Shown here in pieces: positions 8,753-37,494 of a stretch of 64,000 bases of DNA. Where the stretch lies: the NCBI RefSeq assembly GCF_013042245.1, contig NZ_JABDQL010000025.1:1-64000 (forward strand), written 5' to 3'. Numbering within the stretch: position 1 is the first letter of the stretch; each line of letters begins with the position of its first letter. Position numbers and translations under genes: made by a program. Source of the stretch: Winogradskyella sp. (lineage in GTDB: Bacteria > Bacteroidota > Bacteroidia > Flavobacteriales > Flavobacteriaceae). Below the pieces are notes generated by a model. That model did not search any database. It saw only the letters and a list, made by a program, of their open reading frames with translations, and was not told the origin of the DNA.

Positions 8753-9670
8753 CTAAAATTTTAAATTCTCATGTTTATCCCATAGACCCCAATAGGCACC
8801 AACATCACCTTCGTCGCCAGTTTTCCATGATTCGTCAAAAGATGAAAAGTAAAAAATTGGGATTTCATTTTCGTTTGTCCAACGAATGGCATCTATAAAA
8901 TACTTCATTGCGCCTTCTGGTCCTGCTTGCGCACCTCTTAGTCCGCCACCTTCGCTTGGCCAACCTGTTTCAGTAATAATGATAGGCTTTCCTTGAGCGG
9001 CATCTACAACCTGACCATACATAGCTTGCATGTGTCCTAGTGCATATTCAATTGGACAACCTTCCCAATACGGATAGAGGTTAGCTAATATGACATCAGA
9101 ATGTTCTACCAACTCTGGGTGACGAGAAAACTCATAATAGGCATCTACATATCCTACAGGAATATCTAAACCTGCCAAAGCTTCCTTAACGCGTTTTATG
9201 TAGCCTAATAGTTCTTCTAATGATAAGTCATTGCGATATAATACTTCATTTCCAACAGCTGCTACATCTACATGACCCGCTTTTGCTAAAGCTATTAAAC
9301 CTTCAATTTCTTTTTCGTTATCTTCTTTGTCATCGCTTAACCAAGCTCCAACTAAAGTTTTTAGACCGTGTTTTTTTGCAACAACTGGAATGTGCTCATT
9401 ACCCTCAATACAAGAAAAAGAACGAATAGCTCCTGTAAATGGTTTTAAGATTTTTACACGACGTTCGACTTGTTCTATACTAATTTCGTCTCCAGGTTCT
9501 TGACCATCTTCGTACATGCTAAAGCATATACCGTGCATGCCATCTTGTATCGTTTTACGCCATAGGGCTTTTAATTCTTCTAATGAATATTTTGACAAAT
9601 CAATACCCTGAGTATTAATTTGACTGTAACCGTCTTTTTTAAAATGATATCCTTCTCTGTATCCTCCCAT
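8753..9670 (-). CDS. GH17 family beta-1,3-glucan hydrolase/transglycosylase-like protein, no signal peptide
   Basis: GH17 acid/base motif AAVGNEVLYR and nucleophile motif IIITETGWPSEGG; hydrophilic N-terminus MGGYREGYHFKK. Confidence 0.88.
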   Translation of the reverse strand: MGGYREGYHFKKDGYSQINTQGIDLSKYSLEELKALWRKTIQDGMHGICFSMYEDGQEPGDEISIEQVERRVKILKPFTGAIRSFSCIEGNEHIPVVAKKHGLKTLVGAWLSDDKEDNEKEIEGLIALAKAGHVDVAAVGNEVLYRNDLSLEELLGYIKRVKEALAGLDIPVGYVDAYYEFSRHPELVEHSDVILANLYPYWEGCPIEYALGHMQAMYGQVVDAAQGKPIIITETGWPSEGGGLRGAQAGPEGAMKYFIDAIRWTNENEIPIFYFSSFDESWKTGDEGDVGAYWGLWDKHENLKF

Positions 9671-9871: not shown

Positions 9872-11506
9872 CTATAATTCTCCTCTTCTTTTAACTAATT
9901 CTATTTTAATCTCTCTGGATCTAGTTTCGTTTAAATTGTACTTCCACATAATCAAAACAGCAATAAAAGCTGTCAAGGCTGGTATAACAATATCTGCTAT
10001 TCGTAACTTTGTCATAGTTTCAGCAGTTTGAGTCACAGCTCCTTCATCAAAACCAACTAAACTTAATATTGCTCCTCCAAGTACTAATGCAATGGCCTGT
10101 CCCAACTTTACAAACCACCAGTATATAGCACCAAAGGTTCCTTCTTTTCGTGGCATTCCGTTTTCTAATTCATCTAAATCACAAACATCAGCCGTCATAC
10201 TCATCATTAAAGTAAATAAACCTCCTAACCCAAAAGCCATAAGTGGAATAGGCAAAAACATTAGCCAAGGGCCACCTTGACTAGTATCCATACTAAACCA
10301 TGACATACCTATACTATCTAAAAAAGGGTTGATTGCATCAAATACTGAAGCTAAACCACTGTTTAAGCCTTCTCCTATACTAGATTCATTAAATTGTTTA
10401 TTTAACTCATTATCAAAACCCCACCATTTAAGACCATAACCAATTATAGATATAATGGTAGAAATGATAAAGGCCTTTCGTTTTCCCCATTTGTTGGCAA
10501 TACGAGAGATAATTGGTATAACCATAAAAGCAGTTATTAAGGCTGTCAGTGAAGCAAACCAAGCTGGCCAAGTACTTGCCAAGCCATAGTCTCCATTGTA
10601 AATATAAAATACAATTATGAAAAAACTGAAAGAAGCCACCATTTGAAATCCATTGAATACTAAAAATGTTGCGCTACATAATTTCATGAAAGGTTTATTT
10701 TTAAATACTTCTTTTATACCTATCCATAGCTCTTTGAAATTAGATGATATTGTTTTTAAGCCAATTTCTTTTCTGTTTTCCATTTTTCCAGCATCAAGAC
10801 CTTTACAGAATAATGCAGGTAATATTCCAAGAATAGCACAAACTAGACCAACGATTAACGATAAATTACGAACGCCTGTGCCTTGCAATTTTTCAGTAGT
10901 TACTTTTTGCAATTCATCACCTGTAAGCCCCATTTCTCCAATAGCTCTCAGAACTTCATCACTTATAGGAAATACGGTTGGGTCAGCTATAACTACCCAA
11001 AACCAAGGTACCAACATCCAGGCAATTTGTCCGACGGTATTAGCAAATGCCATTAAACGTGTGCGCTCATTGTAATCGGTAGTCATTTCATATCCTAAAC
11101 CTACCAACGGAGTTGCATACATTGTATTTCCGACGAGAAATAATAGAGACATTAAAAGAAAATACCAAAAATTAAACATCACGGAATTATCTTCACTCAT
11201 TTGAAATAAAAGAGCAAATAATATACCGCTGAGGATGGCTCCTACAAAAATATATGGTCTTCGTCGTCCCCATTTAGACTTCGTATTATCAGAGATAAAA
11301 CCCATTATTGGGTCAGTAATAGCATCAAATATTCTTGGTAAACCGCCTAACAAACCTGCTAAAAACGGATCCATTCCAAATGCTGTTACTAAAAAAAACA
11401 TGAAAACCGCTAATGCTCCTGGCAGTAAATTAAGTACTAAATGACCAGAACCAAAGGCTGCTTTTTGCCCAAAAGGAACTTTATCTTTTTTTGCTGTAAT
11501 AGACAT
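9872..11506 (-). CDS. MFS sugar transporter, GPH/glycoside-pentoside-hexuronide-like
   Basis: Polytopic protein; DPIMGFISDNTKSKWGRRRPYIFVGA motif typical of GPH/SLC45-like transporters; located between GH genes. Confidence 0.88.
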   Translation of the reverse strand: MSITAKKDKVPFGQKAAFGSGHLVLNLLPGALAVFMFFLVTAFGMDPFLAGLLGGLPRIFDAITDPIMGFISDNTKSKWGRRRPYIFVGAILSGILFALLFQMSEDNSVMFNFWYFLLMSLLFLVGNTMYATPLVGLGYEMTTDYNERTRLMAFANTVGQIAWMLVPWFWVVIADPTVFPISDEVLRAIGEMGLTGDELQKVTTEKLQGTGVRNLSLIVGLVCAILGILPALFCKGLDAGKMENRKEIGLKTISSNFKELWIGIKEVFKNKPFMKLCSATFLVFNGFQMVASFSFFIIVFYIYNGDYGLASTWPAWFASLTALITAFMVIPIISRIANKWGKRKAFIISTIISIIGYGLKWWGFDNELNKQFNESSIGEGLNSGLASVFDAINPFLDSIGMSWFSMDTSQGGPWLMFLPIPLMAFGLGGLFTLMMSMTADVCDLDELENGMPRKEGTFGAIYWWFVKLGQAIALVLGGAILSLVGFDEGAVTQTAETMTKLRIADIVIPALTAFIAVLIMWKYNLNETRSREIKIELVKRRGEL

Positions 11507-11517
11507 AATTTTATTTT

Positions 11518-13017
11518 TTAGTTAGTTGGTATGATTATAGTTTGTAATGCTTGCGCATTTATAGGTATATAAATAGACTTTTCTTTTAAAGATAAACTGA
11601 AATTCTGCTCTGTTTCTCCTTCATTAAAAACAACAACTGCTATGGTTCCATCTGGATTTTGAGCTGCAGTTACTTGTAATGCTTTATTAGAATTTTCAAC
11701 GCCTATAACCTCAGCTCCGGGACGAATATATTTGCTAAAGTGTGCCATAACATAGTATAATGGCGTAAAATAAACCTCGTCAGCGTTTGGGTCTACAATT
11801 ACTGGTGCTGCACACCAATTCTCGAACCAGTTTGGTCCGCCTTGACGGTCTAAAACCATATTCCAATCTACCCAACCATCAACCCAATTATTTAAACAAC
11901 CAATAATATCTCTGGCGTATCTGTTTACAGGAGCATATTTAGGATGTAAATACTTTTCTTCTTCGGATGCCCAGTCCCAGCCCCAATCTGTGGCTTCTTT
12001 GCTCCAATACCAATTATCATCTTTCCATGCCGGGACTTCAGAGTCTACACAACCTTCAGTTTCGATGAGCAATTTATTAGGTGCCTTGTTATGTGCATAC
12101 TGTAATTCGTCTGCAAAAATCTTATATGTACTTTCATACCAATGAATAGCACTCCCATCAAAGTATTTCGAGGTTTCTTCATTCTTGTACATAGAATCTA
12201 CCCATTCTTTTAATCCAGCACGATTTTGGTCATAACCTAGAATTATTTTATCGCCATGACCATCAGCTTCTAATTTTGGCCCTAAATGATTCATCACAAA
12301 ATTGGTCATCTCATCGGGAGTAAAGTGCATACTTTCCCAGTTATTACCATTTCCATGTGGTTCATTTTCTACAGTGAAACCCCAAATATCGATACCCTGT
12401 TCTTTATAGGCATCTACATATTTTGAAAAGAATAGCGCCCATGTATCGTAATATTTTGGCAGTAATTTACCTCCAACCCATTCGTTATTATCTTTCATCC
12501 AAGGTGCAGCTGTCCAAGGTGAAGCAAATATTTTAAACCCGTTTTCTGAAGTTGCCATAGCATCTTTAATCATAGGAATTAAATCATCCATATCATCTTC
12601 GATTGTAAAGTGTTCTAACTCCATATCATCAACTACAGGTGAGTATGAATATTGTGATAGTGAGAAGTCACACGAGTTCATATGCGTTCGCGTTAATGAA
12701 TAATTTGCGCCTTTAGTACTAAAATAAGCTTCGATAATTTTATTTCTATTTTCTTTACCCAATTGATTGAGTAAATAAGCAGAAGATTCCGTGAACGCAC
12801 CACCAAAACCAGTTATTCTTTGATATTTCTTATCGGTATCTAACTTTACTATTGTGGTAATATCTGCATTTGAAACTTTAGCTAAATCTGTAATCTCGGT
12901 TAACTGATTTCCACTTTTGGAAGTTTCGTATACCGTTACAGGCAGTTCTTTCTTGTTACTTTCACAACTCATTATTAAAATTAAAAAACAAATGCTATAA
13001 TATTCTAATGATTTCAT
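11518..13017 (-). CDS. GH30 family glycoside hydrolase, probable endo-beta-1,6-glucanase/glucosylceramidase-like lipoprotein
   Basis: GFGGAFTESSAYLLNQL, GFTVENEPHGNG (acid/base) and LLIETEGCVDS (nucleophile) motifs; N-terminal MSCESNKK lipobox. Confidence 0.9.
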   Translation of the reverse strand: MKSLEYYSICFLILIMSCESNKKELPVTVYETSKSGNQLTEITDLAKVSNADITTIVKLDTDKKYQRITGFGGAFTESSAYLLNQLGKENRNKIIEAYFSTKGANYSLTRTHMNSCDFSLSQYSYSPVVDDMELEHFTIEDDMDDLIPMIKDAMATSENGFKIFASPWTAAPWMKDNNEWVGGKLLPKYYDTWALFFSKYVDAYKEQGIDIWGFTVENEPHGNGNNWESMHFTPDEMTNFVMNHLGPKLEADGHGDKIILGYDQNRAGLKEWVDSMYKNEETSKYFDGSAIHWYESTYKIFADELQYAHNKAPNKLLIETEGCVDSEVPAWKDDNWYWSKEATDWGWDWASEEEKYLHPKYAPVNRYARDIIGCLNNWVDGWVDWNMVLDRQGGPNWFENWCAAPVIVDPNADEVYFTPLYYVMAHFSKYIRPGAEVIGVENSNKALQVTAAQNPDGTIAVVVFNEGETEQNFSLSLKEKSIYIPINAQALQTIIIPTN

Positions 13018-17877: not shown

Positions 17878-20700
17878 TTACTCTAAACGAATATTATCGA
17901 AATAGAATACTTCGTTTGCTGATAATACGTCTAAATCAGTACCATCTGGATTATTTGGCTTAATTACTAACTGATTAACACCTGTATTACTTGGAGGTAT
18001 CCCCGTAAAAACAATTTCTACTTCGGTCCATGTGTTTGCATTAGTTATAGTTGCAAATTGTGGACCTGGATTTCCTGAATTTGGATCCTGTGGACTACTA
18101 TTAATTTCGAATCGCATTACAACATTAGCTACAGGAGAGTATACTTTGAATTTAAAGGTACCAGTAGCGTTAAAATTATTAGGGAATGCATTTTGTACGC
18201 CTGCAAACCTTTGAGTTCCGCTAAATCGTTCAACTTTTAGAACGCTGGCTGAGGTATTTATTCCTGAAGGATCTGGATTATCATCTAAGCTTACTGCAAT
18301 ACCATTCTCAGGGCTTGCAAAAGTACTTGTAAAGGATTCACAAGCTTCAAAATCTACTGGAAATGAAGTTGCTGGTTCGGCACCAGTCGTACAACCACCG
18401 CCGGTTCCTCCACCTCCACCACCTGGCGTTCCATAGACCATTAGATCATCAAAGAAATAGGTGTTTGTGTTTTGTTGATTAAAACCAAAGAAAATTACGA
18501 TTTTATCAAACTGTGGCGTTGCTGTTGCAGAAAAATCAAACGTGAGCTCTGTCCATTCATTTGCATTAGTTACAGTTTGTGGAATTTCTACAAAATTACC
18601 TGCATTACCGATTTCTTCCAATTTCAGTAATACTGGTGTGTTAGCGTCTGGAGACCATACTTTTAACTTAATTCCTTCAACACTATTAAAATCTAATTTA
18701 TCAGTTAAATCTAACTGTAAATTGTCAAAACCTGAGTTTCCAAATCTAGCAACCTGACCTACTCGACAAGAACTATTAACAGAATTATCAAAATCTGGAT
18801 TGTCAATCACTGAAAATCCTACATTATCTTCTATGAACGTTGGTGAATCTGTCTGGAAAGATACATTTAAATCTGTTGCGGCAGCTGACTCAGATGTTTC
18901 AGGGACACAGATACCTCCACCACCGCCACCGGCTCCGTATACCATTAAATCATCAAAGAAATAGGTATTAGTATTCAGCTGATTGAATCCAAAGAAAATA
19001 ACCATTTTATCAAACTGTGGTGTTGCTGTAGCAGCGAAATCAAAGGTTAATTCTGTCCACTCATTAGCATTAGTTATTGTTTGTGGAATCTCAACAAAAT
19101 TTCCTGCATTACCTATCTCCTCTAACTTAAGTAAAACAGGTGTGTTGGCTTCTGGAGACCATACTTTAATCTTTATCCCTTCAACGGCATTAAAATCTAA
19201 TTTAGCTGTTAAGTCTAACTGTAAATTATCGAAACCTGAGTTTCCAGCTCTAGCTACCTGCCCAACACGACAAGAGTTATTGACAGCGTTGTCAGAATCT
19301 GGGTTATCTATAACACTAAAGGCTATATTATCCTCAATAAATGTTGGAGAATCTGTTAAAAACGTGATATTTAAATCTGCTGCTGCAGAAGATTCTGAAG
19401 TCTCTGCTGTACACGCAGGAGCAACAACTGAAGTGCCTTGAATAATATCATCTATATAAAACGTACCTGCGGTTGTTCCTGGTCCATCTACAAATAATAC
19501 CATATCATTATAAGCACCAGTAGAAGATAACGTAAAGGTTAATTCTTCCCATCCAGTTCCCATATGCATTTGAGAATCTTCTACATTGCCTTCAGTTCCA
19601 TCCTCAAATTTTAATAACACTGGTAACGCTTGTGTAGCATATAATTTTAATGTTACAGCATTTTCAGTAGAGAAGTCTATAGGTGTATCTAAATTAAAAA
19701 ATGCATTTTCGAATGCAGCACCTACATTGGTTATCTCACCAACTTTTGAAGCTACATTATTAATACCAGATTGTTCTGGATTGTCAATAACTGTGAAGTT
19801 GACATTACCCACTATTTTACTTGCATAATCTATGGTTTCGCAATCAAAATCAATTGGAAATTCTAAATCTGTAGCAGTGCAAGGAATGTCATCTGTATTG
19901 ATTTGAGAAATATCATCTATATAGAAAGTACCCGCTGTAGTTCCTGGGCCATCTACAAAAAATGTTGTTGTAGAATAACTTCCTGCGGAATCAAATGTAA
20001 AATACAATGCTTCCCATCCTGTACCACCATGACTCGCAGTAATCTCAGTATCAGCAGCCGAACCATTTTCTAATTTTAAAAGAATATCAATTGGTGCATT
20101 AGACCAGAATAATACTTTTACTGTTTTGTCTGTTGATAAATCTAAATCTACACCAAGGTCAAAAAACAAGCCTTCAAAAGCAGCACCACTATTTACAATT
20201 TCTCCAACATTTGAAGTATTAGGGTTAGCTCCAGATGGGTCTGGATTTTCAACTATTTGAAAAGCAACGCCATTAAATACAGTAGCATCATAAACTACTA
20301 AAGGATTATCAAAAGAAATTGGAAATGCAATAACCTCTGGAATACTAATAACAATGACATCTTCAAAGGTATCTGAATCACCAGCAACATTAGTGGCAAT
20401 TAGCGTAACTGTATATGTTCCTGATTCAAAAACGATTATAGGATTAACTTCCGAAGTTTCTCTTATATCATCTGGGTTATTATTATTTACAATAGTCCAC
20501 TGATAATTATCTGCATTGGTAGATGTATTTAAAAATGATACAACTCCTGTATCTTGATTTATAGTCTGCGTGAATTCTGCATTTATCTGTGGTAAAACTG
20601 CATCATCTTCATCACATGCTAAATAAGCTAAAGCCAAAAATAGGACTGATAGCAATTTTATTCCTCTGGTTATTTTTTTCATAATATTAGTGTATTGCAT
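17878..20700 (-). CDS. Multi-modular surface glycan-binding lipoprotein: PKD domain plus five CBM-like modules
   Basis: Lipobox LALAYLACDEDD; PKD-like segment (FLNTSTNADNYQWTIVNNNNPDD...TYTVTLIATNVAGDS); five repeats each containing a (D/E)NP(D/E) motif and most ending in a (Y/F)(I/F)DD or FDN motif. Start likely internal at MKKITRG (~20682). Confidence 0.8.
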   Translation of the reverse strand: MQYTNIMKKITRGIKLLSVLFLALAYLACDEDDAVLPQINAEFTQTINQDTGVVSFLNTSTNADNYQWTIVNNNNPDDIRETSEVNPIIVFESGTYTVTLIATNVAGDSDTFEDVIVISIPEVIAFPISFDNPLVVYDATVFNGVAFQIVENPDPSGANPNTSNVGEIVNSGAAFEGLFFDLGVDLDLSTDKTVKVLFWSNAPIDILLKLENGSAADTEITASHGGTGWEALYFTFDSAGSYSTTTFFVDGPGTTAGTFYIDDISQINTDDIPCTATDLEFPIDFDCETIDYASKIVGNVNFTVIDNPEQSGINNVASKVGEITNVGAAFENAFFNLDTPIDFSTENAVTLKLYATQALPVLLKFEDGTEGNVEDSQMHMGTGWEELTFTLSSTGAYNDMVLFVDGPGTTAGTFYIDDIIQGTSVVAPACTAETSESSAAADLNITFLTDSPTFIEDNIAFSVIDNPDSDNAVNNSCRVGQVARAGNSGFDNLQLDLTAKLDFNAVEGIKIKVWSPEANTPVLLKLEEIGNAGNFVEIPQTITNANEWTELTFDFAATATPQFDKMVIFFGFNQLNTNTYFFDDLMVYGAGGGGGGICVPETSESAAATDLNVSFQTDSPTFIEDNVGFSVIDNPDFDNSVNSSCRVGQVARFGNSGFDNLQLDLTDKLDFNSVEGIKLKVWSPDANTPVLLKLEEIGNAGNFVEIPQTVTNANEWTELTFDFSATATPQFDKIVIFFGFNQQNTNTYFFDDLMVYGTPGGGGGGTGGGCTTGAEPATSFPVDFEACESFTSTFASPENGIAVSLDDNPDPSGINTSASVLKVERFSGTQRFAGVQNAFPNNFNATGTFKFKVYSPVANVVMRFEINSSPQDPNSGNPGPQFATITNANTWTEVEIVFTGIPPSNTGVNQLVIKPNNPDGTDLDVLSANEVFYFDNIRLE
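18437..18905 (-). repeat. Tandem intragenic repeat unit A (CBM-like module 4)
   Basis: Nearly the same coding sequence as 18941-19409; period ~504 bp (168 codons); both encode SPTFIEDN..FSVIDNPD...TNTYFFDDLMVYG. Confidence 0.85.
18941..19409 (-). repeat. Tandem intragenic repeat unit B (CBM-like module 3)
   Basis: See unit A; the two units are separated by poly-Gly linker codons. Confidence 0.85.
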
Positions 20701-20703
20701 TAT

Positions 20704-21594
20704 TTATTTTTGATAAACTCGTACATAGTCTACAAGCATAGTTTGTGGAAATACTGTTTCGGCATTTGGTGGTCCTGGTAAGTTACCTCCAACTGCTACA
20801 TTTAGAATAATGTAGAATGGTCGGTCATTAAACACCCATTGTCCTTCGCCATTGGTTTCTTCTTCAATATCTTCAGGCGTAATTTGATTGTAAAGTACAT
20901 CATCTACATAATAGTTTATATAATTTGGACCCCACTCAATTCCGTAAACATGAAATTCTGTATCTACTCTGGTATCGTCAAAAGTGTAGGCTTTAGATAC
21001 AGATTCTGCACCAGAGAAATTTGGACCATGAACAGTTCCAAATATTCGAGTTGGTTCGTTTCCAACATTTTCCATAATGTCTATCTCACCTATTCTAGGC
21101 CAAACTTCTCCATCACTATCATCTCCTAACAACCAAAATGCTGGCCACATGCCTTGTCCGTATGGCAAGCGAATACGCGCTTCAAAACGCCCATAAAGTT
21201 GTTGAAACTTATTTTTTGTTTGTAACCTAGCTGATGTGTATTGGGCACCATTAAAGTTTTCTTGTTTTGCTGTAATTAATAAAAATCCATTTTCAGTAGT
21301 TACATTATCTGTTCTATCTGTATAATATTGCAGCTCATTATTGCCCCATCCAGGAATGCCTTCAGCTGTGCCATCACCGATATCAAAATTCCATATCGAT
21401 GTATCTATTTCTCCGTCTTTATCAAAATTATCTTCGAGAACTAGATTATCGAAAGTTGCAACAGTTTGGGTTTCATCGGTATTACAGCTTGATAAAAACA
21501 CAAGCACTGCAAAACCAAGTAGGATATGGTTTAAGGTTTGTTTTTTTCTTATTTTCATAGTCTTTAGTTTCATTTTTTTAATAAAATATTTCAA
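20704..21594 (-). CDS. GH16 family endo-beta-1,3(4)-glucanase (laminarinase-like), lipoprotein
   Basis: GH16 catalytic signature GEIDIMENVG and MWPAFWLLGDD; lipobox LVFLSSCNTDE; start may be internal. Confidence 0.93.
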   Translation of the reverse strand: MKYFIKKMKLKTMKIRKKQTLNHILLGFAVLVFLSSCNTDETQTVATFDNLVLEDNFDKDGEIDTSIWNFDIGDGTAEGIPGWGNNELQYYTDRTDNVTTENGFLLITAKQENFNGAQYTSARLQTKNKFQQLYGRFEARIRLPYGQGMWPAFWLLGDDSDGEVWPRIGEIDIMENVGNEPTRIFGTVHGPNFSGAESVSKAYTFDDTRVDTEFHVYGIEWGPNYINYYVDDVLYNQITPEDIEEETNGEGQWVFNDRPFYIILNVAVGGNLPGPPNAETVFPQTMLVDYVRVYQK

Positions 21595-23042: not shown

Positions 23043-26000
23043 TTATTTTCCAATATTAATGTGTACATAAGTTCTAATTTCCCATTCTTGTCCATTATCA
23101 AAGCCAATAGGACTTATAGGTGGTACTGGTGGAAATGTGTTTGGAGCAACAAAATTGGGTCCAAATCTTGGTGAGAACTCATTTAAGGATCTCCAAGTAC
23201 CTCTTATACCTATTCTTGTGCTTGGCAAAATAAACCAATCAGGCTTACCTAAACTAGTTGATAAGTCAACCATTAACTGTAAAGGAAATGTAAGGTTAAA
23301 GTCTCTATGGTAATCGAATGGACCCCAATCATTAATTTTTACATGTGTTTGAAGCATCATTTTCTTATAGATTGCTCTAATATCACCACCAAAACGTTTA
23401 ATTAATCTATCGCTATCACCATTGGCTTGTCCGTTTCCATAATAGAAGTTACCAATTATTCCTAAATCATTAGTAAGTTTTGATACCATTCTAGAATTAA
23501 TTTCCCATAAATCTTCAGCTGGAGCTGATTGTGGAAATGCAAAGAACTGTCTGTTAGCTAAGAAACCTATGTGAGCATCAGTTGTAGTTGGTAAACGACG
23601 ATAGGTAAATCCTAGATTTGCTGCAAACTTCGCATCTTCTGCTCTATCATTATTCCATTCATACATCCAAGTTCCTGGTGTAGGATCGTAGGTCAACAAC
23701 ATTTCGTATCCATATGTCTCACGACTTCCATCACGTACTGCAAATGGGTCATCGATAACATTTCTTAATCTACCTGTACCACCAACGTCATTTGGCATAG
23801 GTGCTACTAGAGGTTTTTGATACATAAAATTTGGTGCTATCTGAAAATCTCCTTTGGAGAACGTAAATCCTGAAAGCATACTTACTCTATTTCCGCTTCC
23901 TGAATCTCGTAATCTCCAACCAGTAAAAGTTTGTGTTTGGTCTGCACCACCATTAGCTACTAAGCCCATATAACTTGCTTGACCATACCAATTGAACTGA
24001 CCGCCTTGATACATAACTTTAAACTTTCCTCCCCAGTTATCAGAAGATTGTATTTTATCATTGTAGACGATATAGTTTCCAGGAGTACCTCTAACATCTT
24101 GAAATGTTACACCATTTAAAGGACTTCCTGACCAAATACCTCCTACCATTACATTAAACTTTCCGAAGTCTTTCTCAACGGCTAAAGTTGCACGCTGAGT
24201 TGGAAAAGCTGGTATAATACCACTTCGTACTTGATTGGCATCTAGTACACGTTGTCCAGTCTCAGGATCAATTTGTATTTCTGTTTGGAAATCTCTGTGG
24301 TAAATACCAGTTATATCGTAACCCTTATAATTTTTAGAATACTTGAATAACATTGTAGGGTTTGCTCCCCACCAAAGTTGAGGTCCAATAGCTGCTTTTA
24401 GCCCCTTAAAATCACCCTTTCCATCAATTTCAGCGCCTAGAATTTCACCCCCATATATGTCTAAGTTAGGTCCATAATTAGCTTCTGGGTACAGTCCAAA
24501 AAAGTCTCCTTCATAACCCCAATGGTAATGACCGGTTCTATAAAAACCTCTTAAGTCAAAATCTTTAGCGTTCCACTCAAATTCAGCATTGTAAACTTGA
24601 ACTCTATTATTATCGTTTAGAATTATTTCTTCACCATTTGCTCCTTCAACAGTTACAGGCCTTGCTCTATTTTCGTAAAAAATTTCATCTATAGGGTTTT
24701 GAGCAACGTTACCAACAATATTAAAATTCACATTGGCACGCATGTTTGAAGAAGGTTTACCTTCGACTCCAATAAAATAAGACTGCATATGATCGAATCC
24801 TAATTGATTAGGAAATGCATCTGAAGTTGGATCTGGGTTATCAGGTGTTGTAATCAAGCTACCACCCGTACTGAATGTAGAAAATCTTGCACTAAGTTGG
24901 CTTATACTAAGCTTACCTCCATCTTGTGCGCCTAAGGCTGCCTTATCACCTCTGGCTTTTAAAACTGCATCCATTAAATTAATATTGTTGAAATAGTTTT
25001 CAACAAAAGCAGAATCAACGCCTTCATCATAAGGGTTTAATTGGTGTGCTTCTTTAAGTGCATAATATACAGCACGTGGATATAACTCATAAAGACCTCT
25101 TTCGTTTGTTGGACCTTTAGCACATATTCCAAACCATTCTTCATTCATATTATTACCACCTGGAGCTAAATCTCTTTTATAACCTCCATTTGCCCATGTT
25201 GCTACTGTATTGTGAACATCAAAATCTTTTGTTTGATTCCATTTCCACCATCCATCACTAGATTGAAAAGTGAAACCACCAATAGAGTTACCTGATTTAC
25301 CTAATCCTGCAGCATTTTGATAAATTTCTTTCCAATTACCTATGTTATAATATGCTTGTGAATATTGATCTTCCTTATTATCCATAGCATTAAAAGCATC
25401 TGCACCAAACTCCGCAAATAAAATAGGCATATTCAATTCATCATTTACTCTCTGAAAAGCATCACTAAAAGAGATACCTCGGTACATATTAGTACCATAT
25501 ATATCTATATCAGTACAATATTCTTTTACTATATCTAGATATAATAAATCACCATTACAAATAGCCACAGGTACAGAATTGTCTATTTTTTTAATTTCTA
25601 ATGAAGCGTCATTAAAAGCTTTGTAAAGCCCTTCAGCTGCTAACCTAGTACCTGGATCAACACCATCTATAGGTATATCTTCAGTTTCAGCTCCTGTCCA
25701 AGATAAATGATAATTATTCTCGTTACCTACCATATACAATAACAGACCTGGCGTATTTTTATACTTTTTTGCCATGTCAGTGACCTCTTTCATCAAGACT
25801 TCTCGAGTAGCTTGATCTGTATAATCTGTTTGAGGAACCCAAGCACCATTTATGGTCAAACCATATGCGCCAAACTGCGTATTAAGCATAGTATAAATTC
25901 CGTAATTTTCATAGATATACGTAATCCATTTTGGTTCTAAGCCATATGTACGTATTGCATTAACACCCATATTTTTAAATAAGGACATTTCGGAATCTAA

Positions 26001-26222
26001 TGCAGATTTTATAATGTCATCAGATTTATTCCAGATACCTTTATCTAGTATCCCATTGCCTATTGGGACATAATCCCAATTAATACCATTGATTATCATC
26101 TGTTTGCCATTTGCAATCAGTTTTTTTCCATCAGCGTCAGACACAACGGACACTTTATTTACTTGGGCAAAAATGGATGTTGAAATTAGGATTGTGAATA
26201 ATCCAAGAAAGATTTTCTTCAT
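23043..26222 (-). CDS. Glycosidase TIM barrel (GH2-like, clan GH-A) fused to C-terminal outer-membrane beta-barrel-like region
   Basis: Signal peptide; YMVGNENNYH (E168 acid/base) and PILFAEFGADAFNAM (E271 nucleophile); ~600 C-terminal residues of alternating aromatic/hydrophobic strands ending EWEIRTYVHINIGK. Confidence 0.72.
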   Translation of the reverse strand: MKKIFLGLFTILISTSIFAQVNKVSVVSDADGKKLIANGKQMIINGINWDYVPIGNGILDKGIWNKSDDIIKSALDSEMSLFKNMGVNAIRTYGLEPKWITYIYENYGIYTMLNTQFGAYGLTINGAWVPQTDYTDQATREVLMKEVTDMAKKYKNTPGLLLYMVGNENNYHLSWTGAETEDIPIDGVDPGTRLAAEGLYKAFNDASLEIKKIDNSVPVAICNGDLLYLDIVKEYCTDIDIYGTNMYRGISFSDAFQRVNDELNMPILFAEFGADAFNAMDNKEDQYSQAYYNIGNWKEIYQNAAGLGKSGNSIGGFTFQSSDGWWKWNQTKDFDVHNTVATWANGGYKRDLAPGGNNMNEEWFGICAKGPTNERGLYELYPRAVYYALKEAHQLNPYDEGVDSAFVENYFNNINLMDAVLKARGDKAALGAQDGGKLSISQLSARFSTFSTGGSLITTPDNPDPTSDAFPNQLGFDHMQSYFIGVEGKPSSNMRANVNFNIVGNVAQNPIDEIFYENRARPVTVEGANGEEIILNDNNRVQVYNAEFEWNAKDFDLRGFYRTGHYHWGYEGDFFGLYPEANYGPNLDIYGGEILGAEIDGKGDFKGLKAAIGPQLWWGANPTMLFKYSKNYKGYDITGIYHRDFQTEIQIDPETGQRVLDANQVRSGIIPAFPTQRATLAVEKDFGKFNVMVGGIWSGSPLNGVTFQDVRGTPGNYIVYNDKIQSSDNWGGKFKVMYQGGQFNWYGQASYMGLVANGGADQTQTFTGWRLRDSGSGNRVSMLSGFTFSKGDFQIAPNFMYQKPLVAPMPNDVGGTGRLRNVIDDPFAVRDGSRETYGYEMLLTYDPTPGTWMYEWNNDRAEDAKFAANLGFTYRRLPTTTDAHIGFLANRQFFAFPQSAPAEDLWEINSRMVSKLTNDLGIIGNFYYGNGQANGDSDRLIKRFGGDIRAIYKKMMLQTHVKINDWGPFDYHRDFNLTFPLQLMVDLSTSLGKPDWFILPSTRIGIRGTWRSLNEFSPRFGPNFVAPNTFPPVPPISPIGFDNGQEWEIRTYVHINIGK

Positions 26223-26354
26223 TATTTGAGTCTGTTTATATAATCCGAATTATTGATAATTTACTTGAGTTTTAATATAACATTTGTAAACTATCATCTC
26301 TAAAATTGTAAAGTTCATAAATATATGTTTAAATACTGTGAATTAGATAAATTA

Positions 26355-26375
26355 CACCTAAACAAAAAACATACA
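26355..26375 (-). promoter_or_regulatory. Candidate regulator-binding direct repeat, copy 2
   Basis: Minus strand TGTATGTTTTTTGTTTAGGTG; 2 mismatches in 21 bp to the susC-upstream copy; 133 bp upstream of the 26222 start. Confidence 0.5.
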
Positions 26376-26563
26376 CTAATGAAAATGTTTTTCGATGTTG
26401 TTACTATAGTTAAACATTAGTTTTAAATAATTGATTTTTAAACTTTAAAAATTAAAAATATTCTATTTAAATTTAAAAACCAACAAAATGTTGTGGTAAT
26501 ATTGTATTAAAATCTATTGCGGTATGGGTGTTTTTTTTGTTTCTTAATATTGTATGGTGAAAA

Positions 26564-26604
26564 TTAATATGGGAATGTGCAAAGACTGCAAATTCCCATA
26601 TTAA
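26564..26604 (-). terminator. Hairpin/terminator between the 312-aa lipoprotein gene and the GH-barrel gene
   Basis: Perfect 13-bp arms TTAATATGGGAAT/ATTCCCATATTAA with 15-nt loop. Confidence 0.6.
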
Positions 26605-26630
26605 AATTAATGACATGTTTTTCATGGAAT

Positions 26631-29674: not shown

Positions 29675-31141
29675 TTAATATCCAGGGTTTTGTTCCCATA
29701 TTCCACCAGCTAAATCAATCTCTAGTTGTGGTATTGGAAATATTTCGTGTTTACCCGATTGGAATCCATCAATCTCGTTAGCAGCTCTTCCGGTACGTAC
29801 TAAATCAAAAAAGTGATGACCTTCACCCACTAATTCAACACGTCTTTCGTTGTAAATAGCAGTCGTTAAATTTGTTGCTGTAAGCGTTATGTTATTGTCC
29901 GCATTACCAAAAGCTCTTTCTCTAACACGGTTTACATAACCTTGCGCTCTTGTATCATCAATGTTACCTCTATTTAATGCTTCTGCAGCCATTAATAGTA
30001 CGTCAGCAAAGCGAATTGCTCTGTAATTATTTGGGTTAGTTAAATTAGCATCTCCAGTATTCGCATCGCCTTGTCTAGCAATATACTTTCTGTTGAAATA
30101 GCCAGTATGCTCAAATCCAGTAGCAAAAGTTGCACCTGTATCAGCAGCCCATGCTTCAATATCCAATATTGCTGTATCTAATCTATTGTCTCCATCTTCA
30201 AATTCATCTACAACTTCCTGTGTTGGCACATTAAAACTAAATCCAGACTCAAAAACAGGCCCATTATAGTTTCTAATACCATTAAACCCAACAGCTATAT
30301 TGCCTTCGCTACATTGCAAACACCCAAAACCTGCACCTTCTTCATCTGTGTATTGGACTTCAAAAACAGATTCTACGTTGTTTTCATTATCATTTTCAAA
30401 TAACGTACTATAATCCGTGACTAAGTCATAAGGCCCATTCTGTATTAAATTTTCTAAAACAGGAGCTGCTAAATCAAATTTGTCTTGATATAAATAAACC
30501 TTGCCTAAAAGCGCTTGCGCCGAACCTTTTGTAGCTTGCCCAACGATGGGCTGAACATAAGGCATATTATCAACAGCATAGATTAAATCTGCCTCTATCT
30601 GAGCATATACCTCAGCTTTTGCTGTCCGCTCTAAACCAAATTGCTCTCCAAAAAGAATTCTCTTGTCAACTACTAATGGCACATCTCCAAACCATTTCAC
30701 TAACTCAAAGTAGTAATAAGCTCTTAAGAATCTCGCTTGAGCTAATATGTTTTCTTTACCCGGAAAATCTGTTTTATCCTGAAACTCAAGTATAAAGTTT
30801 GCTCTATTGACACCAGAATACATCCAACCCCATATATCTACTAATTGCTGATTGATAGGGGTATGTCTCATGTCATCAATTTCTTGAATACCAAGAACAT
30901 CATTTGCATTTTCTCCTCCAGCTAAAGTATTATCAGAAGCAATTTCTCCTAACATTACATTTATATACGTAGTTTGAAGTAAATCATAGGCTCCAATAAG
31001 AGCATCTTCATAATCTTGTTGTGAATTGAAAAATGCATCTGAATTTTCAAATGGAGCTTCAACGTCCACAAAATCGTCGCCACATGATGCTACCAAAAGC
31101 GTAGCTATCATTATATATATTATTTTTTTTGTCTTTATCAT
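29675..31141 (-). CDS. susD: SusD/RagB family nutrient-binding outer-membrane lipoprotein
   Basis: Lipobox LLVASCGDDF; ARFLRAYYYFELVKWFGDVPLV; NYRAIRFADVLLMAAEALNR; C-terminal IWEQNPGY. Confidence 0.96.
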   Translation of the reverse strand: MIKTKKIIYIMIATLLVASCGDDFVDVEAPFENSDAFFNSQQDYEDALIGAYDLLQTTYINVMLGEIASDNTLAGGENANDVLGIQEIDDMRHTPINQQLVDIWGWMYSGVNRANFILEFQDKTDFPGKENILAQARFLRAYYYFELVKWFGDVPLVVDKRILFGEQFGLERTAKAEVYAQIEADLIYAVDNMPYVQPIVGQATKGSAQALLGKVYLYQDKFDLAAPVLENLIQNGPYDLVTDYSTLFENDNENNVESVFEVQYTDEEGAGFGCLQCSEGNIAVGFNGIRNYNGPVFESGFSFNVPTQEVVDEFEDGDNRLDTAILDIEAWAADTGATFATGFEHTGYFNRKYIARQGDANTGDANLTNPNNYRAIRFADVLLMAAEALNRGNIDDTRAQGYVNRVRERAFGNADNNITLTATNLTTAIYNERRVELVGEGHHFFDLVRTGRAANEIDGFQSGKHEIFPIPQLEIDLAGGIWEQNPGY

Positions 31142-31145
31142 GGCC

Positions 31146-34100
31146 TTAAAATTTTAAATTCATTCCTAATAAAAAGGTTCTCGGATTTGGATAGAAACCA
31201 TTATCGATACCTCCTCCAATTGGAGCTCCTGATGATGTTGTTGGGTCATATCCTTGATACTCAGTCAGTGTGAAAAGATTTTGGACTGATACATAGAATC
31301 TCATTTTACTTATTGTACTATCTTCAAGAAAATCATCTGACAAACTGTATCCCAATTGCACATTTTGAAGTCTAACAAATGAACCATCTTCAACATAAAA
31401 ATCAGAGAAAAGTATGTTTGAGTTTGCCCCTGTTGTTACTCTAGGAAAGGTGTTACTCGTTCCAGGCCCAGTCCATCTATCTAAATAATTAATAGTCCTA
31501 TTGGTCAATCTTTCATTACGCTCATAATTTCTTACGATATCATTTCCTACTGAAGCAAAAGCATAGGCTATAAAATCAAAATTCTTGTATTCTAAGTTTA
31601 GATTTAATCCAAACGTCATATCAGGGATTGGATTACCAATATTTGTACGATCATCGTCATCAATGACACCGTCATTGTTTATATCAACAAAAATCAAATC
31701 ACCAGGTCTAACGTTATCATTTATTGTTGCAGAATTATCTATTTCACTTTGCGTCTGGTATATTCCAGCGGTTTTAAATCCACGAAAATAGCCTATTGGT
31801 AACCCAGCCTCCATCCTAGAAGGAAAATCTTGACCAATACTAAATGCGCCTCCAGGAACAAAATCCACATCTTCAGCAACTTCAATTACCTCATTGTTCA
31901 ATGTAGTCATGTTAAATCTAGCTGAGACTTTAAATTCATTGGTAGGGTCATTAGAATATCCTAAGGCAATTTCTAGACCACTATTCTCGATAATACCAGC
32001 ATTTACAACAGGAGGTAAAGCTCCTGGAGCATTTGGACCTAGTAAACCACTAACTGGTGATGTAATTAATAAATCTTCGGTGCGTCTTTTATAATAATCT
32101 AATGTCAAATCAAATCTATTATTCAAGAATCTAGCATCTATACCAACATCAAATGTTTTCTGTTTTTCCCATTTAATACCAGGGTTAGCAATAATTCCAG
32201 TCGCTACACCAAATGCTCGAGTATTATTGTAAACATAAGTTGCTTCTCCTCCTAGGGTTGACACAAAAGCAAAAGTAGGAATTCTATCATTACCGAGAAT
32301 ACCATAAGATGCTCTTACTTTTAGAAAATCAATAAAATTATTATCCGCTAAAAAGTCTTCGTCTGAAGCCACCCAACCTGTTGATACAGAAGGGAACCAA
32401 CCGAATTTATTTTCTGGTCCAAAGTTAGATGAGCCATCTCGTCTTATTACAGCAGACAAAAGATATTTACCTTTGTAATCATATTGAAATCTTCCAAAAT
32501 ATGATAATAAACGTGAGTCAAAGAATGGATTATTGGGTAAGCCTACAAACAAACTTTCTGATTCAGTAGCATTTTCTATGCTTGCATCTTGAATAGAGTT
32601 GCTTGGAATACCAAATCCCCTAAACCCTCTATAAAAGCCTTCTGATTTAAATATTGAAGTTCCTAATAAGACTTTAACATTATGAGTGTCGTCATAAAGT
32701 TTTTCATACTTCAAAAATGCATCAAAGGTATAATCTCTGAAAATATTAGCTGTTTCTACAATTTCTTCTCTTCCTCGATTTACATTAAATACCTTTCCAC
32801 TTCCATAATTTCGTGAAGGTCTAAATATTTTTGCCTTATCATCTGAATAGTTGAACTGATAATTTACTTGAGCTGTAAAATCATTTAAGAAGTTATATGA
32901 TAAACCGACAACGCCACTTATTCTATTTACCTGGCCCCTATCATAGGTATCAGCTATTTGGTCTAGAGGATTAATTACCTCATTTCCTAATCCCTCTGCC
33001 AAAGCCCCTCTAACACCTTCTATGGTTGGAGCAATGTTTAAAGCATTAAAAAGAACAGAACCAATACCTCCTTCATTTAGTCTATTTCTATTTGTATAAT
33101 TCCAAATTACACCAGCATTAAACTTGAAGTTATCTAAGAAATCGAGACTGTAATTTAAGCTTTGATTAAATCTTGTAAAATTAGCGCTATTCCCGCCTAC
33201 AATACCATCTTGAGAAAAAATTGAGCTACCATAAGCAAAAGTTTGATTTTCGCTACCACCACGTATACTTACTGCTGTACTATATTGTGCTGCATTTTGA
33301 AAGATTTCATCTTGCCAATCTGTACCCTGACCTAAGTCAGCAACATTAGTAAATGGCAAAGGATCTCCTGCAGCTGCAAAAGCTTCGTTAGCTAATAACG
33401 CGTATTCTGTTGCATTGAGTGTTGGTAATTTTCTAGTTGTCTGCTGAAAACCTCCAAAAGCATTAATTTCTACAGTTAATGGCATATTTTTTCTACCTGT
33501 TTTGGTTTTAATAAGAATTACACCATTGGCAGCTCTTACACCGTAGATACCAGCAGTAGCATCCTTAAGAACGTTTACACTTTCAATGTCGTTAGGATTT
33601 AAAACACTCAAATCTTCAATTACGTTACCATCAACTAATATTAACGGTCTATTATCGCCATTGGTAGAAACACCTCTGATATTAATAGTTAAACCAGCTC
33701 CCGGAGCACCAGAGGTAGATGTAATATTAACACCAGCTACTTGTCCTTGTAGAGCCTGCTCTACTCTTGTAGGTTTTAATTCTTCTATGGTACTACTTGA
33801 AATTACAGAAACTGCACCTGTAACTTCCTTCTTTTTTTGGGTACCATAACCAATTACTACTATTTCATTAAGAGATTCTGCATCTTCAACAAGATTTACT
33901 GTAATTGGGTTTGCATCAATAATTGTAACCTCTTGAGTTTTGAAACCTACGTAAGAGAATACTAGTGTAGAATTTAGCGGAACGTCACTGAGCGTGAAAT
34001 TTCCATCAAAGTCTGTTGAAGTTCCTTTGGTTGTATTTTTCAAAATGACGTTTACCCCTGGCAAAGGACCACCCGTGGACGCCTCGACTACTGTACCCCT

Positions 34101-34172
34101 TACATCTATATTTTGAGCATACACAACGGATGCAAAAAAAGCAAAGAATATTGTAAAAATTTTTAAATTCAT
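31146..34172 (-). CDS. susC: SusC/RagA TonB-linked outer-membrane receptor
   Basis: CarboxypepD_reg-like N-terminus (VRGTVVEASTGGPLPGVNVILKNTTKGTSTDFDGNF), plug VVIGYGTQKKKEVTGAV, DGNVIEDLSVLNPNDIESVNVLKDATAGIYGVRAANGVILIKTK. Confidence 0.97.
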   Translation of the reverse strand: MNLKIFTIFFAFFASVVYAQNIDVRGTVVEASTGGPLPGVNVILKNTTKGTSTDFDGNFTLSDVPLNSTLVFSYVGFKTQEVTIIDANPITVNLVEDAESLNEIVVIGYGTQKKKEVTGAVSVISSSTIEELKPTRVEQALQGQVAGVNITSTSGAPGAGLTINIRGVSTNGDNRPLILVDGNVIEDLSVLNPNDIESVNVLKDATAGIYGVRAANGVILIKTKTGRKNMPLTVEINAFGGFQQTTRKLPTLNATEYALLANEAFAAAGDPLPFTNVADLGQGTDWQDEIFQNAAQYSTAVSIRGGSENQTFAYGSSIFSQDGIVGGNSANFTRFNQSLNYSLDFLDNFKFNAGVIWNYTNRNRLNEGGIGSVLFNALNIAPTIEGVRGALAEGLGNEVINPLDQIADTYDRGQVNRISGVVGLSYNFLNDFTAQVNYQFNYSDDKAKIFRPSRNYGSGKVFNVNRGREEIVETANIFRDYTFDAFLKYEKLYDDTHNVKVLLGTSIFKSEGFYRGFRGFGIPSNSIQDASIENATESESLFVGLPNNPFFDSRLLSYFGRFQYDYKGKYLLSAVIRRDGSSNFGPENKFGWFPSVSTGWVASDEDFLADNNFIDFLKVRASYGILGNDRIPTFAFVSTLGGEATYVYNNTRAFGVATGIIANPGIKWEKQKTFDVGIDARFLNNRFDLTLDYYKRRTEDLLITSPVSGLLGPNAPGALPPVVNAGIIENSGLEIALGYSNDPTNEFKVSARFNMTTLNNEVIEVAEDVDFVPGGAFSIGQDFPSRMEAGLPIGYFRGFKTAGIYQTQSEIDNSATINDNVRPGDLIFVDINNDGVIDDDDRTNIGNPIPDMTFGLNLNLEYKNFDFIAYAFASVGNDIVRNYERNERLTNRTINYLDRWTGPGTSNTFPRVTTGANSNILFSDFYVEDGSFVRLQNVQLGYSLSDDFLEDSTISKMRFYVSVQNLFTLTEYQGYDPTTSSGAPIGGGIDNGFYPNPRTFLLGMNLKF

Positions 34173-34419: not shown

Positions 34420-37248
34420 TTATATCTCCAAAATATGATTTGTTAAACTGGCCTCATGTGGTAATTTCATCTTTTTACGCAAACGATATCGTTTAACTTC
34501 TACACTTCGATGAGAAATATTTAAAAGTGGCGCAATTTCTTTAGAAGAAAGATTAAGTCTAAGGTATGCACAGAGTTTTAGATCGTTAGGGGTAAGTACT
34601 GAATACTTCTTTTTAATTTTCTTTAAAAAGTCCTTATCAGCATTATTGAAAGCTTCTTCAAAAAATTTCCAGTCTTCAGTATTATTAATGTTTCTATCAA
34701 TAATTTTAATAATCTTATTGAGTTCCTTTCCTGTTTCTAAAGTGTTTAACTCTCTTTTTAAAGTATTAAGAAACTCATTCTTTCTTATAAGCGTCATTGT
34801 AGACAAGCCTAACTCTCTATTCTTGTTCTCGATATCCTGCTGTAGACTCTTATTTTTATATGCCATAAGTTGTCTCTGGTTCTCCAAATCTTTTATTTCA
34901 AGCTCTTTTGCTTTTGCTTTTAACAATGCTTTCTTTTGCTTTTTATAATATAGTCTATTGAAATATTGTATCGTAGCTGCTATAATAAGAAAAAGGAATA
35001 TATACCCTATTATTGCTATTGGCTTTAGGTACCAAGGTTTTTCTAAAGAAAAATTGAAAGAAGCCGTATTAGACGATAGATTATTACCTACTTTTGCTTT
35101 GACCTCAAAAGTGTAGTCTCCATATGGTAGGTTCTCAAATAAAACATTAGATTGGTTTGACCATGCACTCCAAGTATCATAAATCCCAAGTAGCCTGTAT
35201 TGGTATAGAGATGGAGAGAGCTTATTATAATCTGGCACACTAAAATTAAATTGCAAATTATTCTGTTTATTCTTTAACTTCACCTCACTAGAAATATCAA
35301 TAGGTAGGACGTCTTGCTTTAATGTAGAATACGATGCATTGTTGATAGAAATTTTGTATTGCTTATTACTAAATCTATCTAAATCAATAATTAAATATCC
35401 ATCTGTTGTTCCAAGTAGATATAAATTATATTTGAGGTAAAGAATATTTTCAAAACCCAGTTTACTTTGTCTCAAATCGCTCGGCAAATCAATTGTTTCT
35501 ACTGACGGTGTATCTGTAAGCTTTCCAGGCTGAACAAATATGAGTTGATTTTTTAAAAACCCCCAAAGGACATTATCTGCTTCATTATATACCAGCTTAC
35601 CAGAAACATAGTCGGAATTTGAAAAAGCGTTCTTAAAAATTGAATTACTTTCAAAAGTGTTATCCTTCTTATTATAAGAGAACAAACCATCTTCATAGTT
35701 ATATAGTACGTCTCCTTTATATCTAATTAAACTAGAGCCTATGCTTTTACCAATATCAATCTGACTATGACTCAGTACAGTCATAAAGTCATCATCTAGT
35801 TTTAGCTTATATACACCCTTGTATTCATGACTTACTAAAATTTCTGTAGTGCTAACAAATTCGAAATAACGAGAAGATATATCAAAACCCTCAATTTTAT
35901 GACTTAATTTCCAATTCCCCGTTTGTGCTTTTTCAATAATACTTAACCCATTATAACTTCCTTGAATAAGTTGATTGATTCTATTAGGAGCTTTTTTAAT
36001 TGACCAAATACCCTCTTTTGAAGAGATAAGAGTTGCTATACTATCCTTAATCTCAAAACTTCCTTTATCGTGACCACAAAATAATGTCCCATCTATTTGT
36101 TTTAGAAACCAAACTTGCCCTTTTGTTCCTTCTACCAATTCAAAGTTTCCATTAGTATTAATTGGCTTATAGAACAAACCTTGATTTGTTCCTAGATATA
36201 AATTTTTTTCTGTTTTCTCAGAAGCATAAACCGTACCTAAATATCCTTGCCCATCAGTGTAAACTCGATATGGTGAATCTAAATTCAAGACATTAACACC
36301 ATTATCTAAACCTAGCCAAACATTTCCTGTCACATCCTGAAAGGTCGAAAGCACAGTATTATTAGAAAGACCAGAATTTTTATTTATCTGGAATAGTAAA
36401 TTTCCTTCTTTATCCAACTTTATAACACCATTAGAAATTGTACCTAAAATAAAGTTTCCATTTCTTAATCTAATACTACTGTAAACGCTAACTTGATCTA
36501 AAATAGCATTAGATGTAATATCCCATTTTGTTATAGCATTATCCCGATATTCATAAAATCCAAAATCTTCTGTATGGAAGAGTAAACTATTATTATACTC
36601 ATAAATATTTACTAGCTCCTTGTCTCTAATAATAATGTCGTTGGTAACGAGAATTGGTTTTCCGTTCTCAATTTTAGATATTCCTATGCCTTGCTCTTGA
36701 AAGTATATAGCCTCACCTAACTTAAACGCTTTAATTATTTTTGACTTTGAACCGATAATACCAAAGCTATTACTCGCTGTATTAAAAATATAGATACGGT
36801 CTAATGATTGAAATAGAACAAATTCTTCAAAAGGAATAATATTCCAGAACTCTTCATCTTCAATGAGTTCTTCTTCTAAATTATTGATTAACGACTGATA
36901 CACTAGTCTTCCAAATGCATCTCTTTGCCAGTATCCAAAATCCATATAACTACCCGTGTAAATGAAGTCATTAATTACAGCAACTGACCTTACGATAGTC
37001 TGATTGGGCATTTTATAAGTATTCCATCGTGCTCCATTATATTCTAGTAGTCCTTTATTATTAGCCACATAAATATTTTTATCCTCACTCTGATCTATGG
37101 ACCAGTTTTGATTACCTGCATTATAATTTTGAGAAGTAAATTGCTCAATAGGAGGTATTTCTTGAGAAAAAACAAAACTCAAATTGAAGAATAAAAAAGC
37201 GCTTAAAAAAAAATTGAATGTCGGTATTCTTAACTTTTCAAAAGGCAT
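34420..37248 (-). CDS. PUL regulator: two-component-regulator propeller repeats, Y_Y_Y domain, TM helix, coiled coil and LuxR-type HTH (no kinase domain)
   Basis: LSNNTVLSTFQDVTGNVWLGLDNGVNVL propeller; LFENLPYGDYTFEVKAKVGN Y_Y_Y; C-terminal LTPNDLKLCAYLRLNLSSKEIAPLLNISHRSVEVKRYRLRKKM; start placed at MPFEKLRIPTF. Confidence 0.88.
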   Translation of the reverse strand: MPFEKLRIPTFNFFLSAFLFFNLSFVFSQEIPPIEQFTSQNYNAGNQNWSIDQSEDKNIYVANNKGLLEYNGARWNTYKMPNQTIVRSVAVINDFIYTGSYMDFGYWQRDAFGRLVYQSLINNLEEELIEDEEFWNIIPFEEFVLFQSLDRIYIFNTASNSFGIIGSKSKIIKAFKLGEAIYFQEQGIGISKIENGKPILVTNDIIIRDKELVNIYEYNNSLLFHTEDFGFYEYRDNAITKWDITSNAILDQVSVYSSIRLRNGNFILGTISNGVIKLDKEGNLLFQINKNSGLSNNTVLSTFQDVTGNVWLGLDNGVNVLNLDSPYRVYTDGQGYLGTVYASEKTEKNLYLGTNQGLFYKPINTNGNFELVEGTKGQVWFLKQIDGTLFCGHDKGSFEIKDSIATLISSKEGIWSIKKAPNRINQLIQGSYNGLSIIEKAQTGNWKLSHKIEGFDISSRYFEFVSTTEILVSHEYKGVYKLKLDDDFMTVLSHSQIDIGKSIGSSLIRYKGDVLYNYEDGLFSYNKKDNTFESNSIFKNAFSNSDYVSGKLVYNEADNVLWGFLKNQLIFVQPGKLTDTPSVETIDLPSDLRQSKLGFENILYLKYNLYLLGTTDGYLIIDLDRFSNKQYKISINNASYSTLKQDVLPIDISSEVKLKNKQNNLQFNFSVPDYNKLSPSLYQYRLLGIYDTWSAWSNQSNVLFENLPYGDYTFEVKAKVGNNLSSNTASFNFSLEKPWYLKPIAIIGYIFLFLIIAATIQYFNRLYYKKQKKALLKAKAKELEIKDLENQRQLMAYKNKSLQQDIENKNRELGLSTMTLIRKNEFLNTLKRELNTLETGKELNKIIKIIDRNINNTEDWKFFEEAFNNADKDFLKKIKKKYSVLTPNDLKLCAYLRLNLSSKEIAPLLNISHRSVEVKRYRLRKKMKLPHEASLTNHILEI

Positions 37249-37494
37249 GATATTTTTTTTGTTAAGGTAGTAAAAAGATTTAAAAGACCTAAAAACAAGT
37301 TTTTTTTGGAATAAAAATTCAAAAATGTATAGGTATTGTTGACAGTACAACATGTATGTAGGTCAATAATGATGAATCTTTAGAAAATTAGGATTTCAAA
37401 ATTCTAAACAGAAAGTAGGTTAAGCTTAAGATTTCTAAAGCAATAAAATTTAGATAAGTACTTGATAAAAAAAGAATTGATTTCTATATAAAAC

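Follow-up and report, generated by a model that had tools for sequence, protein, structure and literature searches.

Few carbon fluxes in the ocean are as large as that of laminarin, and the way Bacteroidota take it up is usually interpreted in terms of the SusC/SusD system. SusC/D expression has even served as an indicator of glycan use (PMC6298971). A gene in a 64,000-nucleotide stretch of Winogradskyella sp. DNA (contig NZ_JABDQL010000025.1, positions 1 to 64,000, hereafter the window) raises the question of whether glycan cleavage and passage across the outer membrane can be joined in one polypeptide that works without this pair. The original prediction, made from the sequence alone, was that a 1059-aa protein carries a glycosidase TIM barrel fused to its own outer-membrane beta-barrel, which would tether the enzyme or let its product through. 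We consider it reasonably probable that this fusion imports laminarin-type beta-1,3-glucan across the outer membrane as a unit made of one polypeptide.

The ORF is present at 23043-26222, starts with ATG and is read on the minus strand, a point on which the prediction was silent (Table 1). The signal peptide (MKKIFLGLFTILISTSIFAQ), the YMVGNENNYH motif with E168, PILFAEFGADAFNAM with E271 and the C-terminus EWEIRTYVHINIGK are all as described, and Q20 is invariant among 49 homologues. A chance ORF or a misassembly is ruled out by the relatives: tblastn confirmed at least 584 stretches in Bacteroidota contigs, and the 80 best of these extend over virtually the full query at 64-93% identity. Within its own genome the fusion gene is a single intact copy. 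Pfam identifies only PF02836 (residues 33-290, E = 2e-9), and the protein is annotated only as a GH2 TIM-barrel protein, the kind of label under which the original prediction had supposed that homologues may exist. Of 248 genomes sampled evenly across the phylum, 35 give a match, from the genus of the window to other classes, and the fusion is carried by hundreds of Bacteroidota, marine ones and some from the gut. A full-length relative in a Bacteroides finegoldii record lies in an operon with genes for GH16, BglX and HP478 (the 478-aa partner lipoprotein of Table 1) and without SusC/D.

Table 1. Features of the fusion gene and its polysaccharide utilization locus (PUL) in the window.
Feature	Position	Strand	Basis or remark
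Regulator, Y_Y_Y and LuxR-type HTH	34420..37353	-	
SusC TonB-dependent transporter	31146..34172	-	PF07715 Plug, PF13715
SusD	29675..31141	-	PF07980
Fusion gene, 1059 aa: signal peptide, clan GH-A TIM barrel, predicted 24-strand outer-membrane beta-barrel	23043..26222	-	
Type I signal peptide, residues 1-20 (MKKIFLGLFTILISTSIFAQ), no lipobox Cys	26163..26222	-	Assigned by eye
Catalytic TIM barrel, residues 24-395; putative acid/base E168, putative nucleophile E271	25038..26153	-	PF02836, GH158 profile match, AlphaFold2
Codon of E168, putative acid/base, GNENNY motif	25719..25721	-	
Codon of E271, putative nucleophile, AEFGADAF motif	25410..25412	-	
Helical linker between enzyme and barrel, residues 396-437	24912..25037	-	AlphaFold2 helices 404-412, 416-431
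Predicted outer-membrane beta-barrel, residues 438-1059, 24 predicted strands	23046..24911	-	AlphaFold2, Foldseek, loop pattern
Predicted extracellular loop 3, residues 564-592 (GHYHWGYEGDFFGLYPEANYGPNLDIYGG), aromatic and acidic	24447..24533	-	94% mean conservation
Partner lipoprotein HP478, 478 aa	21598..23034	-	Ig-like and weak CBM-like matches
GH16 family lipoprotein, third member of the conserved triad	20704..21594	-	PF00722
CBM-containing protein, 940 aa, probable glycan binding	17878..20700	-	CBM_4_9
GH149-like beta-1,3-glucan phosphorylase, 1152 aa	14327..17785	-	Synteny with published PULs; no Pfam match
GH17 lipoprotein, periplasmic by basic post-Cys residues	13033..14325	-	
GH30 debranching enzyme	11518..13017	-	PF02055
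MFS sugar transporter, inner membrane	9872..11506	-	PF13347
Second GH17, no obvious signal peptide	8753..9670	-	PF00332

Single-sequence AlphaFold2 was unusable (pLDDT 28.6), and all structural statements rest on an alignment-based AlphaFold2 model built with 49 homologues (mean pLDDT 73, pTM 0.51, many loops below 50) from a shallow alignment of 49 rows, each of at least 65% identity. Because the confidence of this model is moderate, the exact strand count, the closure of the barrel and the placement of the enzyme are uncertain. TM-scores in Foldseek comparisons with the PDB were low, as expected where each match covers part of a long chain.

The N-terminal half is modelled as a (beta/alpha)8 barrel, with TIM strands at residues 44-48, 89-93, 110-115, 160-165, 219-224, 241-246, 267-272 and 313-318. 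E168, within an NE motif, lies just past strand 4, and strand 7 ends with E271; this is where clan GH-A enzymes have their acid/base and nucleophile. All 108 fused sequences share both residues, and likewise N167, R91, N245, Y247 and W325. The complete clan GH-A-like catalytic half that had been foreseen is upheld. A classical GH2 enzyme is rejected because no N-terminal sugar-binding and Ig-like sandwich domains precede the TIM barrel, which follows directly after the signal peptide with PF02836 as the only domain found, and the NCBIfam beta-galactosidase model scores 20 against a cut-off of 999. By structure and profile matches the enzyme stands nearer to the beta-1,3-glucan enzymes of GH158, GH157 and GH72. 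A profile of the catalytic half has its best PDB match in GH158 (E = 4.9e-6, over weak single stretches), where the GNE and TE(W/F)G motifs line up, and the Pfam GH72 beta-1,3-glucanosyltransferase family matches 12 of 24 members (best E = 1.3e-5), the window protein itself giving no match. On account of this GH158 and GH72 profile similarity, our best guess is that the catalytic half is a beta-1,3-glucan hydrolase or transglycosylase.

Foldseek returned LaGH157, BuGH158 and GH2 enzymes on the catalytic side. The best structural matches are the laminarinases BuGH158 (PDB 6PAL) and LaGH157, at 10-15% identity in the Foldseek alignments, and these families share with the fusion a place in beta-1,3-glucan PULs. 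GH158 is an endo-beta-1,3-glucanase family, and its member BuGH158 requires E137, E220 and N136 (PMC7157763). The GH158 TIM barrel carries a C-terminal Ig-like domain; in the AlphaFold2 model of the fusion a helical linker and a membrane barrel follow instead.

This C-terminal half is predicted to be an outer-membrane barrel, as originally proposed, and not a soluble beta-sandwich. The model shows 24 long antiparallel strands from residue 438 to 1057 (the grouping into 24 is our count), joined by segments of 7-34 residues at odd positions versus mostly 2-3 at even positions (exceptions 6, 12 and 20; Mann-Whitney p = 1e-4), and the Foldseek matches on this side are the BtuB, FrpB, PfeA, ZnuD, PirA and MOMP barrels. 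The even strand number, long outer loops, short turns and type I signal peptide of the prediction are those of an outer-membrane barrel. A sequence search of the C-terminal half gave no Pfam family and no meaningful PDB relative, so the barrel assignment rests on predicted structure. Among 248 Bacteroidota genomes a profile search found no barrel-only protein, the substantial matches all being fusions or fragments of fusions. We also compared the fusion with two known kinds of barrel protein. It is not a TonB-dependent transporter of the SusC type: Pfam finds no plug (PF07715) or TonB link in the protein, a TIM barrel stands in the place of the plug, and 24 strands are predicted versus 22. Nor is it a type Va autotransporter, having 24 predicted strands versus 12 and no autotransporter Pfam match.

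The predicted barrel is conserved to the same degree as the enzyme (mean frequency of the commonest residue 0.76 vs 0.77). Three of its outer loops (564-592, 615-621 and 967-977) reach 94-97% conservation and contain many aromatic and acidic residues; in a simple anchor one would expect variable loops, which suggests that the barrel is more than that. The first of these loops (loop 3) is a possible glycan site or pore constriction.

Tethering of the enzyme at the cell surface, one part of the original prediction, does not fit the standard barrel topology. Because the strand number is even and the long loops follow odd strands, the N- and C-terminus of the barrel are both predicted to be periplasmic, with the enzyme on the periplasmic side, which would place cleavage at the pore exit and not at the cell surface. 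The export signals of relatives that lack the barrel and are made as lipoproteins are intermediate as to membrane side. The opposite arrangement, in which the barrel does no more than anchor the protein or let it secrete itself, with the TIM domain passed through to the cell surface as in autotransporters, would agree with the helical linker directly before strand 1, as autotransporters have it, and with the surface exposure of many glycan-active enzymes of PULs (PMC7157763). We judge it unlikely, given the predicted topology, 24 strands in place of the 12 of classical autotransporters, the strong conservation of the outer loops, a barrel conserved like the enzyme, and a close genetic linkage to HP478.

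That linkage is a regular feature of the relatives. HP478 lies directly downstream of the fusion in 98 of the 99 loci with enough sequence, and GH16 is present in 96 of these 99. The fused loci are laminarin-type PULs that also contain GH149-like, GH17, GH30 and MFS genes, and in 53 loci the gene immediately upstream of the fusion is a relative of the regulator. One full-length fusion of 1081 aa (L172, genome G264) departs from the triad, its neighbours including neither HP478 nor GH16.

In the window the order is regulator, SusC, SusD, two binding lipoproteins, fusion, HP478, GH16, and then the CBM protein, GH149-like phosphorylase, GH17, GH30, MFS transporter and second GH17. HP478 and GH16 follow the fusion at 8 and 3 bp spacing and a 408-bp gap precedes it, so the fusion heads a compact fusion-HP478-GH16 block. 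This AT-rich gap (window 26223-26630) separates the SusC/D block from the fusion gene and may hold a separate transcription start; the flavobacterial promoter motif TTG...TAnnTTTG is absent from it. HP478, in which acidic residues follow the lipid Cys as they do in SusD and GH16 but not in the GH17 lipoprotein, is a probable surface glycan-binding protein, and the GH16 lipoprotein is probably a surface endo-beta-1,3-glucanase. Directly past the downstream end of the PUL lies a 1098-aa FG-GAP/ASPIC-UnbV repeat lipoprotein (window 5344-8640), and a gene nearby (window 3393-5123) encodes a protein whose C-terminal sorting domain is of the type IX secretion kind.

The genes of the PUL bear on a further reading, that the barrel exports beta-glucan, comparable to the PgaA and BcsC barrels, while the TIM domain trims or transglycosylates it in the manner of GH72. 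Exporters do join periplasmic parts to barrels, and the GH72-like similarity would suit such a role; the neighbours, however, are catabolic (GH16, GH17, GH30, MFS and phosphorylase) and no glycan synthase was seen among them, which makes export or remodelling highly improbable.

Whether the fusion bypasses SusC/D has a divided answer. In the window the claim fails, as a SusC/SusD pair (29675-34172) lies directly upstream; across relatives it is supported. Where at least 8 kb of upstream sequence is available (85 fused loci), SusC/D is absent from 61 upstream flanks and shares one gene run with the fusion in 22, and in three genomes of 99-100% completeness (G051, G066 and G144) the fusion is present without any domain of either SusD family tested. 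In two loci (L043 and L066) a regulator gene separates adjacent SusC/D and fusion blocks, a layout that suggests two modules joined into one PUL.

Relatives without the barrel provide a second comparison. Forms of about 430-475 aa with the catalytic half only occur in families f21 and f29 and in genome G119 (loci L103, L104/L176, L105, L111, L163-L169 and L171); most have a lipobox Cys, many adjoin GH149-like genes, and where measured the catalytic half is about 48-55% identical. HP478 is found in 103 of 108 fused loci versus 0 of 13 barrel-less loci, an absence that is partly truncation, many of the barrel-less contigs being short. In family f21, three of five barrel-less loci (L103, L163 and L165) have SusD, two of them a SusC-SusD pair, upstream of GH16 and the enzyme, and four fused relatives have no SusC/D nearby. 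The correlation argues that barrel and HP478 together do a job comparable to that of SusC and SusD. A strict trade-off between barrel and SusC/D would be too strong, since genomes with the barrel-less forms of family f29 have neither barrel nor SusD and 22 of the 85 fused loci have both. From these f29 genomes it also appears that the enzyme does not always depend on a dedicated import partner.

The same counts weigh on the possibility that a non-transporting barrel merely fixes a periplasmic enzyme to the inner face of the outer membrane, as a lipid anchor would in the barrel-less relatives. The lipobox Cys of most of these forms allows that membrane attachment is what counts, and 22 of the 85 loci have SusC/D in the same gene run. 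Against this stand the 61 flanks without SusC/D and the three genomes without SusD, the conserved outer loops, and the cost of a 620-residue barrel as a substitute for a lipid anchor; we regard it as a minor possibility.

The import reading that we prefer draws on computed features (ORF, conservation, domain order, gene context and SusD-free genomes) and on a predicted barrel, strand count and topology; from these we infer transport, substrate, catalytic activity and cooperation with HP478. The neighbouring GH16 would make gluco-oligosaccharides at the surface, and HP478 would capture them. The plug-less 24-strand barrel would act as a wide porin and select gluco-oligosaccharides through its conserved outer loops with their aromatic and acidic residues, and the clan GH-A domain at the periplasmic pore exit would cleave or transglycosylate the incoming beta-1,3-glucan chains. 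Cleavage at the exit could keep the gradient inward, with hydrolysis as a presumed sink, and GH17, GH30, MFS and phosphorylase would complete breakdown and uptake. The fusion-HP478-GH16 module could replace SusC/SusD, and in the genome of the window it is combined with a SusC/SusD pair. That wide porin, glycosidase and surface lipoprotein form a widespread SusC/D-independent, plug-less machine for glycan import that replaces SusC/SusD for beta-1,3-glucans is a broader proposal, to which we give an even chance.

In this proposed scheme the fusion takes the same pathway position as SusC/SusD, with a surface lipoprotein partner and a barrel of similar size, for which Foldseek returns barrels of TonB-dependent transporters. 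It differs from SusC in having no plug or CarboxypepD_reg domain, 24 predicted strands versus 22 and an attached enzyme, and HP478 differs from SusD in giving no SusD match. The nearest described concept is the MFS-GH17 fusion FbGH17b of Formosa (PMC6246565), where a single polypeptide from a similar PUL likewise combines a transporter with an enzyme for laminarin; there the transporter is an inner-membrane MFS protein and the domains are unrelated, whereas here an outer-membrane barrel is predicted. Excerpts of a study of Muricauda lutaonensis list a "GH2 beta-glycosidase" at the position of the fusion in its laminarin PUL (PMC13188888). Loci from two strains named in that study (L078 and L032) have the fusion in the same gene order, and the listed enzyme is very probably the same protein; in these excerpts its name is an annotation only, it is placed before uptake, and the barrel goes unmentioned. 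In agreement with the expectation that the architecture is not known as a characterised one, we found no report of a fusion of enzyme and outer-membrane barrel in open-licence PubMed Central text; an earlier description may exist outside it. If the import reading is true, there would be a second outer-membrane route for laminarin, without SusC/D, which surveys would miss because the protein is labelled only "GH2", and nature would offer an example of an enzyme fused to a channel, with cleavage and import possibly coupled.

To place the barrel-less forms relative to the fused ones we used a tree from a quick search without bootstrap and with a distant outgroup. On this tree the barrel-less forms are nested among fused forms and three changes are needed. 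In genome G119 (L111:3369-3737) the enzyme gene ends at the barrel boundary and the next approximately 55 codons still resemble the start of the barrel, which by sequence resemblance is a decaying barrel remnant. Given the nesting and this remnant, the fused state is most simply taken as ancestral and the barrel was probably lost three times. In another genome of the same genus as G119 (L112, G235:C53:1310-3330) the fusion gene is fragmented by in-frame TAA stops across the enzyme and early barrel, and looks like a pseudogene or an assembly error. Two more distant, lipoprotein-like relatives of the enzyme half (about 23-24% identity; L107:8148-9203 and L108:8553-9545) lie in clusters with GH17, GH149-like and MFS genes, and possibly represent a further family of beta-glucan enzymes.
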